A stretch of DNA of 30,700 bases from a virus, in IMG/VR virus record IMGVR_UViG_3300046000_005009, positions 1 to 30,700 of that record, one strand, 5' to 3'. The first letter of the stretch is position 1. Each line of letters starts with the position of its first letter. Shown here piece after piece: positions 1 through 26,592 of the stretch. A program made the translations under genes and the position numbers. The notes below the pieces were generated by a model. It worked only from the letters and a program-made list of their open reading frames with translations. It was not told the DNA's origin and searched no databases.

Positions 1-222
1 AGATAAAATTGTCGGTGTAAATGTGCTGAATACTTCTTCGCGTGAAAGTCCTGTGTGAAGACAAATGTTGTTAAAGTCTTTGATTCTCATTCGCTCTGGG
101 TGTGCAACGTAAAGTCGTGCTGTTGGATCGCTTATGCGTAACACGTTCTTAAAGTTATTCATCGTCTTGAAGTTCATCTTGACAAGTCGTCCGAATGGCG
201 TTTTATAGATTGCTTTATTCAT
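1..222 (-). CDS. Small HTH-like protein, 3' end cut by contig edge
   Basis: This gene starts at the ATG at 222-220 and runs off the left edge. The contig ends share 126 bp, so its 3' end is found at 30554-30574. Joined across the circle it gives 79 residues ending INEEND. The start is well supported: GGAGG lies a few bases upstream, inside the last codons of the preceding gene, which it overlaps by 8 bp. The part around residues 47-67 (IKDFNNICLHTGLSREEVF) looks like a helix-turn-helix, as in small phage DNA-binding proteins, but this is inference. Its end overlaps the start of the DnaA-like gene by 17 bp, so it precedes that gene in the same leftward transcript. I do not recognise the family. 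Confidence 0.75.
   Translation of the reverse strand, partial: MNKAIYKTPFGRLVKMNFKTMNNFKNVLRISDPTARLYVAHPERMRIKDFNNICLHTGLSREEVFSTFTPTILS
4..129. repeat. Terminal direct repeat, left copy
   Basis: Bases 4-129 are identical to 30575-30700 (126 bp). The three outermost bases (AGA) differ from the matching GAT. An overlap near 127 bp is what a de Bruijn assembler with k=127 leaves on a circular contig. A real short terminal repeat is less likely because it falls inside a gene. Confidence 0.9.
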
Positions 223-532
223 CTTGACCTCCGTAAGTTTCGTTGTAGTATTGTTCTGCATTTGTAGACTCACCATATATGCTATGACCTTCAATGTAAG
301 AATCCGTAATCTGCTCCTTCTCCATTTGCTTGGCTTGTTCAAAATGTTTTTGTGAAAGAGTTCCCTTGTTATCCCAATACGCTTGTTCCAACCAGTCAAC
401 CGCAGTTTGTTTGTGTTCCATATTGTTTAAATTTAAAACTTCATTTGGTTCACTACCAAATTTAGCATTTGGATTATCGTAAATAAAATAATTGATGTGT
501 TTTTGACAGTCCGTAATGTCTCCTTGCAACAT
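215..532 (-). CDS. Small early protein with YNETYGG C-terminal tail
   Basis: A 105-residue protein, start ATG at 532 behind an A-rich leader. I do not recognise a domain. It is hydrophilic, with the region around residues 30-75 predicted helical and rich in Lys, Glu and Gln. It ends NAEQYYNETYGGQDE. This tail is shared with two other small proteins in the leftward block (28040-28291 and 28825-29055) although the rest of each protein differs. The codons for the two glycines form a GGAGG that sits just before the next start codon at 222, so the tail may be kept partly because it supplies that ribosome binding site. Role unknown; early-gene position is inferred from strand and neighbours. Confidence 0.75.
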   Translation of the reverse strand: MLQGDITDCQKHINYFIYDNPNAKFGSEPNEVLNLNNMEHKQTAVDWLEQAYWDNKGTLSQKHFEQAKQMEKEQITDSYIEGHSIYGESTNAEQYYNETYGGQDE

Positions 533-2790: not shown

Positions 2791-3192
2791 AACGTAAAAA
2801 CTTTTAAGAAAACTTATAAAAAAAGTGTTGTAAAGCGTAAAGCAACACCCGAATCTGAATCTAATCAGCAAGAAATTGTAATAAAATACCTTCGTTTAGC
2901 ATATCCCGACGCGTTGTATTGCGCTTCAGCAGGTGGAATGAGAACAAGTTACTTGCAAGCGATTAAGATGAAGCGTACCGGTTACGTTAAAGGCTTTCCC
3001 GACCTATTTATATACGAACCACGCGGTGCGTTCTATGGTCTTGCTATTGAAATGAAGAAAGAAAAGGGGGGTGTCGCGTCGCCAGAACAAAAGCGTTGGC
3101 AGGAGCAATTGAGAAACAGGGGGTATTGTTCTTATATTTGTAAGGGAAACGAGGAAGCAATCAAAGTAATAGACGAATACTTTCAAAGTTGA
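2788..3192 (+). CDS. VRR-NUC domain nuclease
   Basis: A 134-residue protein. The ATG at 2788 is preferred over the in-frame TTG at 2782. It shows the VRR-NUC fold of the PD-(D/E)XK nuclease superfamily: a helix with QQE (E29), GFPDLF (P71-D72), the core IEMK (E88, K90) and a following helix with Q101. Stand-alone VRR-NUC proteins are common in phages and are thought to cut branched or flapped DNA. Here it leads the rightward block next to a sigma-like gene and not far from the small terminase, so a role in resolving replication intermediates before packaging is plausible. The first 20 residues are very basic. Its stop overlaps the next start (TTGA). Confidence 0.85.
   Translation: MNVKTFKKTYKKSVVKRKATPESESNQQEIVIKYLRLAYPDALYCASAGGMRTSYLQAIKMKRTGYVKGFPDLFIYEPRGAFYGLAIEMKKEKGGVASPEQKRWQEQLRNRGYCSYICKGNEEAIKVIDEYFQS
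3109..3140 (+). promoter_or_regulatory. Candidate internal promoter before sigma-like gene
   Basis: TTG (3109-3111), 21 bases, then TATATTTG (3133-3140), inside the end of the VRR-NUC gene. Transcription would start near 3146, about 43 bases before the sigma-like gene. The match to the Bacteroidota consensus is good, but it lies in coding sequence and may be chance. Confidence 0.35.
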
Positions 3193-3689
3193 CACTTGAC
3201 CAATACATAGAAGGACACTACAAAAAGTTCAAAGAACTTGCGAAGAACATTTCGCGAGGCGAAGATTACTATGAAGATTTGCTTCACGATTCTTTGCTCT
3301 CTATGTTTGGTTCGAAACACATTGAGAATCTAATTGACACAGGCGACTTTGAGTTCTATCTTATTCGTGTAATGTATCTGGCGGTTAACTCACCTACCTC
3401 TCCATTTTACAAACAAACGATTGCTTGGAATCGCAACCGCAGAGACTTCAAAGAATATGCGCACGAAGTCGACAAGACTTGGTTAGGCGCACGAATGACA
3501 AACGAACAACTGGATATCCTTATAAGTCGTTTGAGCGAATTTGAAAGGCTTATATTTCAAGAATATATCTTCGAAGGCTTCACCTATAGAGAGCTGTCAA
3601 AACAGACTGGTATTCCAATGCCTTTCTTATATCGAACAATAGACAATATCAAACAAAAAATAAGAGCCAATGTTATTCGCAAAAAGTAA
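3189..3689 (+). CDS. Sigma-70-like (ECF-type) transcription factor
   Basis: A 166-residue protein with a TTG start overlapping the previous stop; no usable ATG lies near the N-terminus. Residues about 10-60 resemble sigma region 2 (HYKKFKELAKNI, YYEDLLHDSLLSMF, then FYLIRVMYLAV). Residues about 113-162 resemble region 4 with a helix-turn-helix (LSEFERLIFQEYIFEGFTYRELSKQTGI then MPFLYRTIDNIKQKI, read in two parts). Size and layout fit ECF-type sigma factors. It probably directs host RNA polymerase to late promoters. It is placed before the structural genes and 450 bp before a promoter-like site at 4141. The region 2 match is weaker than region 4. Confidence 0.75.
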   Translation: MTLDQYIEGHYKKFKELAKNISRGEDYYEDLLHDSLLSMFGSKHIENLIDTGDFEFYLIRVMYLAVNSPTSPFYKQTIAWNRNRRDFKEYAHEVDKTWLGARMTNEQLDILISRLSEFERLIFQEYIFEGFTYRELSKQTGIPMPFLYRTIDNIKQKIRANVIRKK

Positions 3690-4110
3690 TGAGTACAAGC
3701 GCAGGTTAGAAATATGTCGCAGTTGTAAATTCTTCGAAGCATCAACTCAAAGCTGCGGTCCATTGATCGTGGGCGACGAAGTAGAAACCGAAGTCCTATT
3801 CCGAAAGAAGTCAATCAAACTTTGTGGGTGTGTCATGCCTATCAAAGCAAAACTCGCCTTCGCATCTTGCCCAGCGTCAAAGTGGGACGGTGTTCTTTCA
3901 ATGGAAGAACAAATAGAGTTCAAGCGTTTCTTGCTCGATATGAAAGCTCAAGGACGTTTAGAGGATAAAGACTTGATGAAGTTCTATTCGTTTAAGGATA
4001 AAGCTACAGGAGCGTTCAATGAGCGTTCAACGTGCAGTCCTTGTGTTAAGAAAGACATAAATATGTTTTTGGAGTCGATGAAGGACGTAATTGTTGAAAT
4101 AGGTGAATAA
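3670..4110 (+). CDS. Cys-rich, probably zinc-binding phage protein
   Basis: A 146-residue protein starting at ATG 3670, overlapping the sigma-like gene by 20 bp. It has several cysteine pairs: ICRSC (C16, C19), a Cys near 29, LCGC, a single Cys in FASCPASKW, and CSPC near the C-terminus. This suggests one or two bound zinc ions. I recall similar proteins upstream of terminase genes in Bacteroidota phages, without known function. Tight linkage with the sigma-like gene suggests a transcription or DNA-binding role, which is inference. A gap of about 440 bp without a convincing gene follows. Confidence 0.7.
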   Translation: MLFAKSNEYKRRLEICRSCKFFEASTQSCGPLIVGDEVETEVLFRKKSIKLCGCVMPIKAKLAFASCPASKWDGVLSMEEQIEFKRFLLDMKAQGRLEDKDLMKFYSFKDKATGAFNERSTCSPCVKKDINMFLESMKDVIVEIGE

Positions 4111-4140
4111 CTTATAAGGCAACTTTTGGAAATACAAACG

Positions 4141-4148
4141 TATATTTG
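4141..4148 (+). promoter_or_regulatory. Promoter-like -7 element before structured leader
   Basis: TATATTTG is a perfect -7 element. A TTTTGG lies upstream at 4124-4129, but only 12 bases away, shorter than the usual 17-23, so a host-type -33 box is not convincing. A phage sigma factor may use a different upstream element. Transcription would start near 4152, at the base of the pseudoknot-capable hairpin, and could drive the late operon. Confidence 0.45.
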
Positions 4149-4152
4149 TAGA

Positions 4153-4224
4153 GCCAAGTAATAACTTATTACCCCCTTTTGTTTTTGCTTGGCGGCTAGA
4201 AACAATTGGGGGTATATTTTTTAT
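4153..4224 (+). terminator. Pseudoknot-capable terminator/attenuator hairpin
   Basis: A long hairpin pairs TACCCCC (4170-4176) with GGGGGTA (4208-4214) and TTGTTT (4179-4184) with AAACAA (4200-4205), with a 2x2 internal loop. It is followed by TATTTTTTAT, as in an intrinsic terminator. The hairpin loop holds CTTGGC (4188-4193), which is exactly complementary to GCCAAG (4153-4158) near the predicted transcription start. The two pairings together form a pseudoknot. It could end the upstream operon, release a short RNA of about 70 nt, or act as an attenuator of the late operon. Confidence 0.6.
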
Positions 4225-4552
4225 CGTCGGGAGTATTGAACGGCAGGATAAAAGACGAACAAGGGCAACTGTGGGATTGTGTTAAAGCCCAATGGTATGA
4301 CAAAGGAATAAGCCATACGACACACGGAGAGGCAATTCTTCGAAAGATAGATTCCAGACTAACGGACATTGCTGTTCACGTTAGGACACGACAGCGAGAG
4401 ACTCATTCGACAGAGTGATTAAATCGCAAAAGTGAGCGTCCAACACATTAAGAAATTAGTGTGCTTGGATATTTCTATCTCTCACTTTAGCTCAAGATCT
4501 ATTCTCTAGAGTAATTAGTATAGTGAGTGTTTTAAGAATTTAAGAAGTAACA
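4225..4552 (+). ncRNA. Candidate structured leader RNA, no convincing gene
   Basis: A 328-bp stretch between the attenuator hairpin and the next gene. The only long frame (4206-4418) needs a TTG start with no leader and resembles no protein I know. Instead there are several local helices: GGGC/GCCC with AAC/GTT (4263-4290); GTATG/CATAC (4295-4318); CTAACG/CGTTAG with an inner ACA-TTGC-TGT (4359-4384); and a long one pairing GC-A-AAAGTGAG (4426-4436) with CTCACTTT-A-GC (4481-4491), enclosing CCAACACA/TGTG-C-TTGG. A palindrome CTCTAGAG lies at 4504-4511. This could be a long structured 5' leader, a stable phage RNA, or the packaging site next to the small terminase. A short unrecognised protein is not excluded. 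Confidence 0.45.
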
Positions 4553-4906
4553 ATGATAATTATAGCAGCACAACTTGAAAGCGTAGGTACGCGAAAGGAC
4601 AAGACGCTCAAACTAACCTTTGGAACAAATGAGTTAAGTCCTTCACAAGCGTCAGAACTATTTACAATAGCTAATCAGTTTGGTTATCTTGCCTTCAAAG
4701 ATGAAGACTTCAAACGCGAAGAACTGGACGCAGTAGAATCATTAAAGTCTGAACTTGAAGATACGTTAAAGAAGCCTTCACAACGTTTGCGTGGTGTTCT
4801 ATTCAGACTGTTCGAACAAGACAACGACGGGTTCAAGACGTTCTCGAAATACTACGATTCGAAAATGGAACAACTTATTAACCACTACAAAGGAAAATTA
4901 GGGTAG
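4553..4906 (+). CDS. Conserved Bacteroidota phage protein near terminase
   Basis: A 117-residue protein starting at ATG 4553 (leader AAGAAGTAACA). Residues 20-50 form a strand-helix-strand pattern (LKLTFGTNELSPSQASELF, FGYLAFKDEDF). The C-terminal half (PSQRLRGVLFRLFEQ, SKMEQLINHYKGKL) closely follows a family I recall beside terminase and replication genes in many Bacteroidota phages. Function unknown; no catalytic motif is visible. It lies 18 bp before the small terminase gene and is probably cotranscribed with it. Confidence 0.7.
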   Translation: MIIIAAQLESVGTRKDKTLKLTFGTNELSPSQASELFTIANQFGYLAFKDEDFKREELDAVESLKSELEDTLKKPSQRLRGVLFRLFEQDNDGFKTFSKYYDSKMEQLINHYKGKLG

Positions 4907-4924
4907 TTCTTATATTTATAAATT

Positions 4925-5344
4925 ATGAGCAAGGAAGAAAGCAAAGTAAAGTCGCAAAGTGCTACACTAAAAAAGAACGCTATGCTAAAAGCATTGGAAA
5001 GCACTTTGGGTGTAGTAACGTCAGCGTGTGAAGTTGTTGGAATAGATAGACGCACACACTACCGTTGGATGAATGAGGACGAAGCGTATCGTGTGCAGGT
5101 TGAATCGTTGACCGACCTTGCTGTTGACTTCGCAGAAAGTCAGTTGTTCGAATTGATTAAGGGAGCGCACCGCGAGGTGTCAACACCAGACGGTGAAGTA
5201 ATCCGTATTCAAGACGCACCCAACACAAGTGCAACAATTTTCTATTTGAAGACACGCGGAAAGAAACGAGGGTATGTTGAGCGAAGTGAAATTGCAGGTG
5301 TGAACGACGCTCCAATTCAAATAATAATAAACGATAAACTATGA
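4925..5344 (+). CDS. terS: Terminase small subunit
   Basis: A 139-residue protein starting at ATG 4925. Residues about 18-58 form a DNA-binding helix-turn-helix (LGVVTSACEVVGIDRRTHYRWM). A helical oligomerisation region follows (VDFAESQLFELIKGA), then a typical small-terminase C-terminal part (ATIFYLKTRGKKRGY). This is the DNA-recognition subunit that marks the phage genome for packaging. The large subunit is not next to it but on the opposite strand about 20 kb away. Its recognition site may lie nearby, perhaps in the structured gap at 4111-4552. It ends ATGA, coupled to a 51-residue gene. Confidence 0.85.
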   Translation: MSKEESKVKSQSATLKKNAMLKALESTLGVVTSACEVVGIDRRTHYRWMNEDEAYRVQVESLTDLAVDFAESQLFELIKGAHREVSTPDGEVIRIQDAPNTSATIFYLKTRGKKRGYVERSEIAGVNDAPIQIIINDKL

Positions 5345-5496
5345 GCGAAAACAAACTTAACTTTTTGAAGTCGCAAATTAGCGTGTTCAATCCAGAGTGG
5401 ACGAAAGAACAGGTTGAGATGGAAGCAATCAGAATATACAACGAAGCAAACACTATCGACGACGACGACGAAGGGTGTTTGTATTGCGGATCTTAA
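5341..5496 (+). CDS. Short acidic protein ending in CxxC
   Basis: A 51-residue gene from ATG 5341 to TAA 5496, overlapping the small-terminase stop by 4 bp (ATGA). The product begins MSENKLNFLKSQISV. It has a central amphipathic helix (TKEQVEMEAIRIYNEA), a run of acidic residues (DDDDE) and the ending GCLYCGS. The Cys-x-x-Cys could bind metal as a dimer. I recall similar short proteins beside phage terminases, with no assigned role. Tight coupling to the small terminase suggests a packaging or head role, which is inference. Confidence 0.65.
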   Translation: MSENKLNFLKSQISVFNPEWTKEQVEMEAIRIYNEANTIDDDDEGCLYCGS

Positions 5497-5526
5497 ACGA
5501 ATAAATACGAATAAATACGAATAAAT
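5497..5526 (+). repeat. Three tandem 10-bp repeats before tail chaperone
   Basis: Three exact tandem copies of ACGAATAAAT. The last A and T belong to the ATG start at 5525. The unit resembles the A-rich leader of a Bacteroidota start site, so the array probably arose by slippage. It may tune translation of the tail chaperone. Confidence 0.75.
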
Positions 5527-25281: not shown

Positions 25282-26592
25282 CTAACCCACGACATATTGT
25301 CCATAACTTGGATTAAGTTCGAAGTACATTCGCATCATGATAGCGTCGGCAACATCTGGAGAAATTCCTTCGCGGTTCTTGATAACGTCCTTCGGTGTTA
25401 CCATTAACTTTCCGTCCACGTCTGCTCTGTGTCGCTTAATCATTTCAAGCTCACGAACGATTTGTTCTTTGCGCGTACTGGATAGAATCGTCACCTTGTT
25501 TTCCTCAACGTATTGCGCAAGTTTGTAATAACATTCGCTCTTTAAGTTTTGGTATTGTGGATGCTTTGGTTTAGATCCGTTGACGAACCCTCGACACTTA
25601 AGAAAATCAACCACACCACCACCAACACCGTCTTCGTCGCACACAACGTCTTGCAATAAAATTGAGTGTTGTTGACAGGTTAAACGAATCTTGTTCACTA
25701 CTTCGTCCAACGCTGCACGATTGAGTTCAATTATATCGATTATAGTTAGACCTTCCCAAACGCAAATGATTGTTCTATCCTTCCCGAAACGCGCAATATC
25801 GGCTGTGATGTATTTCTTGCCTTCATTGATTACTTCGTTGCGGAACATTCGAAGTAAGTTCTCCGTTTGAAAGAGTTTGTCGCTGTCGTCGTCGAACTCC
25901 CAGTTGCCTTCGAGCAGACGTTTGCGGTCGTACTCTGGAAGTCTTCGCAACGATTCAATGTAAGCTACCGGTAAGAACGGATTGTCTTGCGGTAACGCTT
26001 GAACGAAAGCGCGGTGTGAAGGCAATTCGTTGCGGTTGTTCTTCATATAGAATTCATTGTACAACCAACCCTTCGCAGGATTACACGAAAGAAAACCTTT
26101 GGGAATTAAACCGAACTCGTTCAATTTAAATCGACAACGAGAGTGAACAATGCTGACCGCCTTTTCGGTTACTTCGGAACACTCGTCAATGAAGTAGTCT
26201 GTGATTTCTAACGATCCAAGACTATTGAAGTTAACGTCCGAAGGGTACGCGAATAAGTCTTTCAATACTATCTCGCTTCCGTTGAAGAACTTTATTACGT
26301 TGGATTGTCCGTTAAACGTGTAGTGCTTGTTCGCTATCAATCCAAATTCTTCAGCCGTTTCGAAGAACGTGTTTAACGTCGTCTTTTTCAACGTATCTAA
26401 TTTGCTACGTCCAATAAGCGAACGCGTCCCTGCGTACTTCAAACGACGTTGTATCTGCCACATACAACCGAACTTCGTCTTCCCACCCCCTGCCGCGCCA
26501 CCGTATAACAACTGTTCAACTTGTGAATCAGTCGCCAAATAGTTAAGTGCTTCAATCTGACGCGGCAGGTATTCGGGTTTATATGGTTGCAT
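25282..26592 (-). CDS. terL: Terminase large subunit
   Basis: A 436-residue packaging motor from ATG 26592. ATPase: Walker A GGAAGGGKT (31-39), Walker B DYFIDE (132-137) and coupling motif SCNP (169-172). Nuclease: the first acidic residue in TADIARFGKDRT (D265), VCDEDGVGGG and the last motif DVADAIMM. The size and motifs fit the compact terminases of Bacteroidota siphophages. It packages DNA together with the portal and small terminase, but it is encoded in the opposite, leftward block, about 20 kb from the small subunit. Its start overlaps the previous stop (TAATG). Confidence 0.95.
   Translation of the reverse strand: MQPYKPEYLPRQIEALNYLATDSQVEQLLYGGAAGGGKTKFGCMWQIQRRLKYAGTRSLIGRSKLDTLKKTTLNTFFETAEEFGLIANKHYTFNGQSNVIKFFNGSEIVLKDLFAYPSDVNFNSLGSLEITDYFIDECSEVTEKAVSIVHSRCRFKLNEFGLIPKGFLSCNPAKGWLYNEFYMKNNRNELPSHRAFVQALPQDNPFLPVAYIESLRRLPEYDRKRLLEGNWEFDDDSDKLFQTENLLRMFRNEVINEGKKYITADIARFGKDRTIICVWEGLTIIDIIELNRAALDEVVNKIRLTCQQHSILLQDVVCDEDGVGGGVVDFLKCRGFVNGSKPKHPQYQNLKSECYYKLAQYVEENKVTILSSTRKEQIVRELEMIKRHRADVDGKLMVTPKDVIKNREGISPDVADAIMMRMYFELNPSYGQYVVG

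Follow-up and report, generated by a model that had tools for sequence, protein, structure and literature searches.

A predicted two-domain phage RNA, with a pseudoknot head and an RF02932-like body, at a locus of interchangeable cassettes

The gap at positions 4111–4552 of the window, the 30,700-nucleotide stretch of viral DNA analyzed here, is predicted from its sequence to encode a structured plus-strand RNA of two domains. These are a pseudoknot head (4153–4222) and a body (4217 to about 4490), and the unit is one of three interchangeable cassettes found at this locus in related phages. Conservation of the RNA spans about 4149 to about 4490–4515. Judged by primary sequence and predicted pairing, the body is a distant relative or sister subclass of the Rfam family RF02932 (Betaproteobacteria-1), with a P1-P2-P3 pseudoknot core that runs through the whole class. 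We read the unit as a phage noncoding RNA gene whose body acts in trans and is replaced under phage–host conflict, and we give this reading a probability of about 50%. A preliminary description had proposed a structured leader with several hairpins, acting as an attenuator of the late operon, a stable phage RNA, or a packaging site. That interpretation stands in part; it did not recognize the second pseudoknot, the swapping of cassettes, or the link to RF02932.

The gap is bounded on its 5' side by a Cys-rich gene (3670–4110) and on its 3' side by a 117-aa gene (4553–4906, + strand) that is kept in relatives and marks the 3' boundary of the locus. A sigma-factor-like gene lies upstream (3189–3686, + strand; phrog_1740, E 1.5e-9), and a small terminase-like gene follows at 4925–5344 (+ strand; phrog_309, E 3.9e-7). 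The gap had been described as holding no convincing gene, and this is upheld. The 70-aa ORF at 4206–4418 (+ strand) is spurious: it is intact in 2 of the 26 sequences of the window's type (module A), the other 24 carry stops or frameshifts, and it has no match in PHROGs. A protein at this position was rejected. No tRNA was found in the region, no Rfam family matched at its gathering score, packaging RNA families (phi29-type) included, and blastn of the region against named phages and plasmids gave no match. A sub-threshold match of the pseudoknot hairpin to sau-5949 (E 0.07) was taken as a chance resemblance to a terminator.

The head is preceded by a Bacteroidetes-type −7 box, TATATTTG (4141–4148, + strand), which is present in almost all relatives; AGGCAAC.TTTG upstream of the box is conserved in part of them only. 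The sigma-factor-like gene is a candidate reader of this box. Helix A (4153–4193, + strand) pairs GCCAAGUA (4153–4160) with UGCUUGGC (4186–4193), in DNA letters GCCAAGTA with TGCTTGGC. Helix B (+ strand) joins 4170–4176 to 4208–4214 and 4179–4184 to 4200–4205, with the strands TACCCCC-UU-UUGUUU (4170–4184) and AAACAA-UU-GGGGGUA (4200–4214), and is followed by a U tract at 4217–4222. The strand order A-B-A'-B' makes this an H-type pseudoknot. The 77-nt head stretch folds with z = −3.53 against shuffles, even without the pseudoknot, and the whole leader with z = −3.0. When the whole window was scanned for a pseudoknot with a U tract, three matches were obtained, the head being second by score; six shuffled windows gave two weaker matches in total. 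The top-scoring match, at 26281 (+ strand), lies antisense within the large terminase gene with no promoter-like context seen and is probably due to chance.

Two protein-guided scans of IMG/VR yielded about 110 contigs of one phage group, in which type A and type B intergenic regions open with the same head. Across 37 distinct heads, standard pairs make up 99.4% of 777 pair cells, and double changes occur at 8 of 21 pairs. Compensatory changes are seen at 4 of 8 pairs of helix A (99.7% of cells paired) and at 4 of 13 pairs of helix B (99.2% paired). The doubly changed cells number 63, against 19.6 ± 3.9 after shuffling (0 of 500 shuffles), and at most 9 when the partners were slid. The pseudoknot with its terminator-like U tract, as first proposed, is thus confirmed by covariation. 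Read on the plus strand, G·U cells number 32 in the head against a single A·C cell, and 98 against 0 across 31 pairs of the body. Since G·U is tolerated and A·C is not, selection acts on a plus-strand RNA and not on a DNA hairpin. A conserved protein and a lack of compensatory changes had been named beforehand as outcomes that speak against an RNA; on both counts the results favor RNA. In one natural recombinant (L009), helix-A halves of two types are joined and the helix is partly unpaired. In the automatic pseudoknot scan, L056 gave no match and L057 a weak one with other helices, at a score reached by 2 of 40 shuffles; a pseudoknot with changes covarying between these two can be read by eye only, and we do not claim it as a finding.

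The body is a block of about 270 nt on the 3' side of the U tract, and it is near-invariant in the 26 sequences of the window's type. Stem P1 (4217–4255, + strand; RNAalifold, the RF02932 alignment, and cross-pairing) consists of UUUUUUAUC (4217–4225) with GAUAAAAGA (4247–4255) and of GUCG (4226–4229) with CGGC (4241–4244), and it carries the conserved motifs GUCGGG and ACGGCAG. In the window, P1 takes the U tract as its 5' strand, so the terminator U tract and P1 are mutually exclusive. Stem P2 (4263–4290, + strand; RF02932 alignment and cross-pairing test) pairs GGGC (4263–4266) with GCCC (4287–4290) and presents the loop sequence CUGUGGGA at 4269–4276. From the same loop, UGUGU (4278–4282) pairs with ACACA (4320–4324) to form the P3 pseudoknot (+ strand; cross-pairing test). 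The later hairpins of the preliminary description are upheld as well, two of them by compensatory changes. The hairpin CUAACG (4359–4364)/CGUUAG (4379–4384) on the plus strand has two double-compensated pairs and reads CUCAAG/CUUGAG in 7 of 26 sequences. A hairpin at 4439–4469 (+ strand) has four, and it lies inside an outer helix predicted from the sequence, AAAGUGAG (4429–4436) with CUCACUUU (4481–4488), also on the plus strand.

The first 90 nt of the body align to the 120-nt RF02932 model with 28.5 bits (E 0.0025, 801 bases searched), which is below the gathering score of 49.4; the best score in the window's phage group is 32.4 bits (L117). Window and model share, in the same order, P1 with GUCGGG/ACGGCAG, a spacer, and P2 with its CUGUGGGA loop. 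The third hairpin of the model (cuAGcGCC/GGCUggCGGGU; GGUGGCGAAG..AGCGCC/GGCUGGCGGGU) is absent in the window and its group, and also in L201, L206, and L211. In contrast to the model, the window has additional 3' hairpins and the pseudoknot head. A search pattern drawn from the shared part retrieved 15 loci from contigs of bacterial genomes and, beyond the group, about 35 from IMG/VR; the pattern shares words with the window, and these matches are therefore no independent proof of homology. Four loci (L139, L153, L203, and L214) were left out as likely chance matches in coding sequence. In an Rfam scan of 11 pattern loci, eight were full RF02932 members with 86–104 bits. Three, from Kordiimonas (L201, 35.2 bits), Hyphomonadaceae (L211), and Rhodospirillaceae (L206), scored 28–35 bits, as the window does, and for L201 an alignment to the window made by eye extends well past the pattern (ACUGUGGGAU, CAAAGG-A-AAGC, CGG-GAGGCA).

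The P3 pairing is class-wide: the nucleotides after CUGUGGGA pair with a site 42–54 nt downstream. At least four Watson–Crick pairs are formed in 27 of 28 divergent copies (the window is one of the 27), compared to 20% when strands of different copies were crossed (0 of 2000 permutations). Examples are UGUGU/ACACA in the window, GCGACC/GGUCGC in L206, GUGUUC/GAACAC in L146, and GAAUUA/UAAUUC in L172. Native strands pair in 21 of 28 copies for P1 (9% crossed) and in 26 of 28 for P2 (40% crossed). Because these pairs are not part of the search pattern, cross-pairing of P1, P2, and P3 gives independent proof of homology. The P3 pseudoknot is common to the window and RF02932, and it is not in the public Rfam model. 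A 2017 survey is the likely origin of RF02932. A literature search on the family returned nothing.

Phages outside the group also carry RF02932. A named carrier is Acidovorax phage AP1, with a copy of 93 bits where nothing is annotated. Among Burkholderiaceae, 16 of 150 genomes have the RNA above the cut-off, some in several copies. The class can thus be traced from freshwater Bacteroidetes-type phages through phages of Betaproteobacteria to bacterial integrative elements. In the 3' part of RF02932-class RNAs, a variable word of 7–9 nt is duplicated at fixed places, GGCTCC-N-r ... CACC-A-r. At least 5 nt are common to both places in 14 of 19 copies, compared to 12% when crossed (0 of 2000 permutations). 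The carriers are members other than the window (L141, L145, L151, L159, L166, L171, L201, L204, L207, and others). Such a word would fit an RNA that recognizes its target by sequence.

The linkage of head and body recurs in other phages. At 11 further phage loci, a pseudoknot with a U tract ends 17–29 nt on the 5' side of GUCGGG (0 of 40 shuffles each), with heads unlike that of the window in sequence. A sigma70-like −10 box (TATAAT-like) stands directly before the head in most of these loci. Unrelated aquatic phages therefore have the order of the window, namely promoter, pseudoknot with U tract, and RF02932 RNA. In several loci of this small sample, a 5' GUUGN can be paired by eye with an NCAAC that follows the U tract (GUUGG/CCAAC, GUUGC/GCAAC, GUUGU/ACAAC; a mismatch in L151), and the pairing was not seen in L137 and L166. 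It would enclose the head within one RNA. The tested RF02932 copies in bacterial genomes have no pseudoknot head, and none was seen by eye in AP1. These bacterial copies without a head suggest that head and body may do separate things.

Within the window's phage group, three RNA cassettes (A, B, and C) occur at the locus, and each of 107 distinct regions has exactly one. The regions comprise 52 of type B, 33 of type A, and 21 of type C, plus one (L085) that was missed by the strict B pattern and is B by alignment. The divergent L056 and L057 were counted as B; they share the B core and differ in their heads. Cassette B has the same head class as A. Cassette C is carried by the minus strand. 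It has a TATATTTG box of its own and a pseudoknot whose sequence is unrelated, and the unit points away from the packaging genes; the late genes of C-type genomes have a separate promoter-like box upstream. Modules B and C gave weak, chance-level matches only in Rfam, and pattern scans found them in this phage group only, if a single chance match within a coding sequence is set aside. On a tree built from the two adjoining genes, sigma-like and Cys-rich, at least 23 changes of type are needed (40 when shuffled). Cassette types are partly clustered and far from simple descent. The small terminase remains mostly 86–100% identical across these changes.

In relatives, the gap between the Cys-rich and 117-aa genes varies in length and collects many small genes of unknown nature. 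Its cargo (in L081, L074, L017, and L088, for example) includes DNA-modification genes of an anti-restriction type, namely N6/N4 methylase, D12 methylase, and Mom-family (PF25680, E 1.5e-66) genes. The protein of 215–532 (minus strand), with EQAKQMEKEQ and the ending YYNETYGG, resembles small genes of this hotspot in L032, L103, and L107 and would be a member of the hotspot's accessory family at another site. Neighbors of the wider RF02932 class include genes for integrases, serine recombinases, primase/helicase, ParB-like proteins, terminase, portal, and H-NS; the relatives in bacterial genomes adjoin integrases and other genes, not terminases. No neighbor is constant across the class, and no common partner was found among 67 neighbors in Burkholderiaceae; this lack speaks against the control of a single gene in cis. 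In L209 (Caballeronia) and L213 (Paraburkholderia), RF02932 lies near an MkoC-like helicase (E 1.3e-62) and a ZacB-like PLD protein (E 1.5e-12). As partners of the RNA, these defense-type genes were set aside as single cases.

In our preferred reading, RNA polymerase would start at about 4149–4155 from the box at 4141, and the pseudoknot would fold behind it. At the U tract transcription would either end, leaving a pseudoknot RNA of about 70 nt, or pass. On read-through in the window the U tract would pair into P1, so that the body would fold in the read-through RNA only. The body would then work in trans during infection, with a component of the host as its most likely target, and be replaced by unrelated RNAs under phage–host conflict; these two steps are the weakest of the scheme. 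The inverted C type, together with the lack of a constant neighbor, speaks against an obligatory role in cis. That every relative has one cassette, that unrelated RNAs replace it, and that anti-restriction genes gather at the locus suggest a role in phage–host or phage–phage conflict. Genetically, constant presence combined with repeated unrelated replacement points strongly to a conserved need met by changing solutions. We suggest tentatively that the three nonhomologous cassettes are functional equivalents, an RNA trait in exchangeable types of which RF02932 is the cross-phylum representative. Such a trait may be superinfection immunity or counter-defense, for example. Large noncoding RNAs of phages are few and mostly unexplained, and the function of RF02932 becomes testable in a small phage.

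The rather doubtful alternative that the unit is a cis-acting attenuator or antiterminator leader, in which the pseudoknot-terminator and the RNA set the entry of polymerase into the late or cargo operon, draws on the arrangement in A and B types, where the 117-aa gene and the small terminase gene come after the promoter, the terminator-like pseudoknot, and the structured RNA. The mutual exclusion of U tract and P1 in the window fits it as well, as does the RNA at the start of rightward genes in L145, L141, and L146. Against it stand the RF02932 copies that lack any terminator head, the missing constant downstream gene in other phages and bacteria, and the inverted C-type unit with its separately promoted late genes. 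The late-operon attenuator of the preliminary description is weakened accordingly, as the unit faces away from the packaging genes in 21 of 107 regions; its terminator-like U tract was correctly seen. The unit is still upstream of late genes in many genomes of types A and B, where it may have an added role in cis. We hold it unlikely that head and body are two independent elements, a self-terminated pseudoknot sRNA of about 70 nt and an RF02932-like RNA made separately. The two do recombine separately, one head class being common to A and B bodies, and bacteria have the body without the head. However, the 0–29 nt between U tract and P1 leave no room for a promoter, the window's U tract is itself a P1 strand, and the GUUGN/NCAAC pairing, read by eye in a small sample of several phages, could enclose the head in one RNA.

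A folded DNA element serving as packaging site or replication origin, which would suit a noncoding stretch adjoining the small terminase gene, is very improbable. G·U pairs are kept and A·C pairs are not, the unit is inverted in C genomes, RNA relatives occur outside packaging regions, and the cassette type changes while the small terminase stays nearly the same. The earlier idea of a packaging recognition site loses ground on the same evidence, and of the roles first considered, the stable phage RNA is favored: a self-contained RNA rather than an obligatory attenuator or packaging site. Hairpins arising by chance in an AT-rich gap, or the remains of a decayed gene, might be expected where the gap is variable in length and collects cargo, but this explanation is refuted by the covariation, the near-invariant 270-nt body, and the cross-phylum core; we regard its probability as negligible.

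The noncoding RNA gene favored here resembles several known systems in part. In structure, the head resembles intrinsic terminators: the base of its stem is G+C-rich, and a U run comes directly after it. Unlike in these, helix A anchors the loop to the RNA's 5' end, and the U run would join P1 on read-through. Type III toxin–antitoxin RNAs (ToxI and similar) are short H-type pseudoknot RNAs with a promoter and a terminator. The window likewise has an H-type pseudoknot with a promoter and a terminator-like U tract, but it has a single pseudoknot without tandem repeats, and no ToxN-like toxin was found among the downstream genes examined in the window and its relatives. In the lambda late leader (PR', tR', 6S RNA) and the HK022 put RNA, a promoter-proximal structured leader and a terminator precede the late genes. 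In arrangement, the unit described here differs in being invertible and in occurring without late genes as well.

Two further observations concern the DNA around the locus. The small terminase-like gene (4925–5344, + strand) and the large terminase gene (25282–26592, − strand) lie about 20 kb apart. At 5494–5524, ACGAATAAAT is repeated three times head-to-tail, immediately before the gene that starts at 5525.
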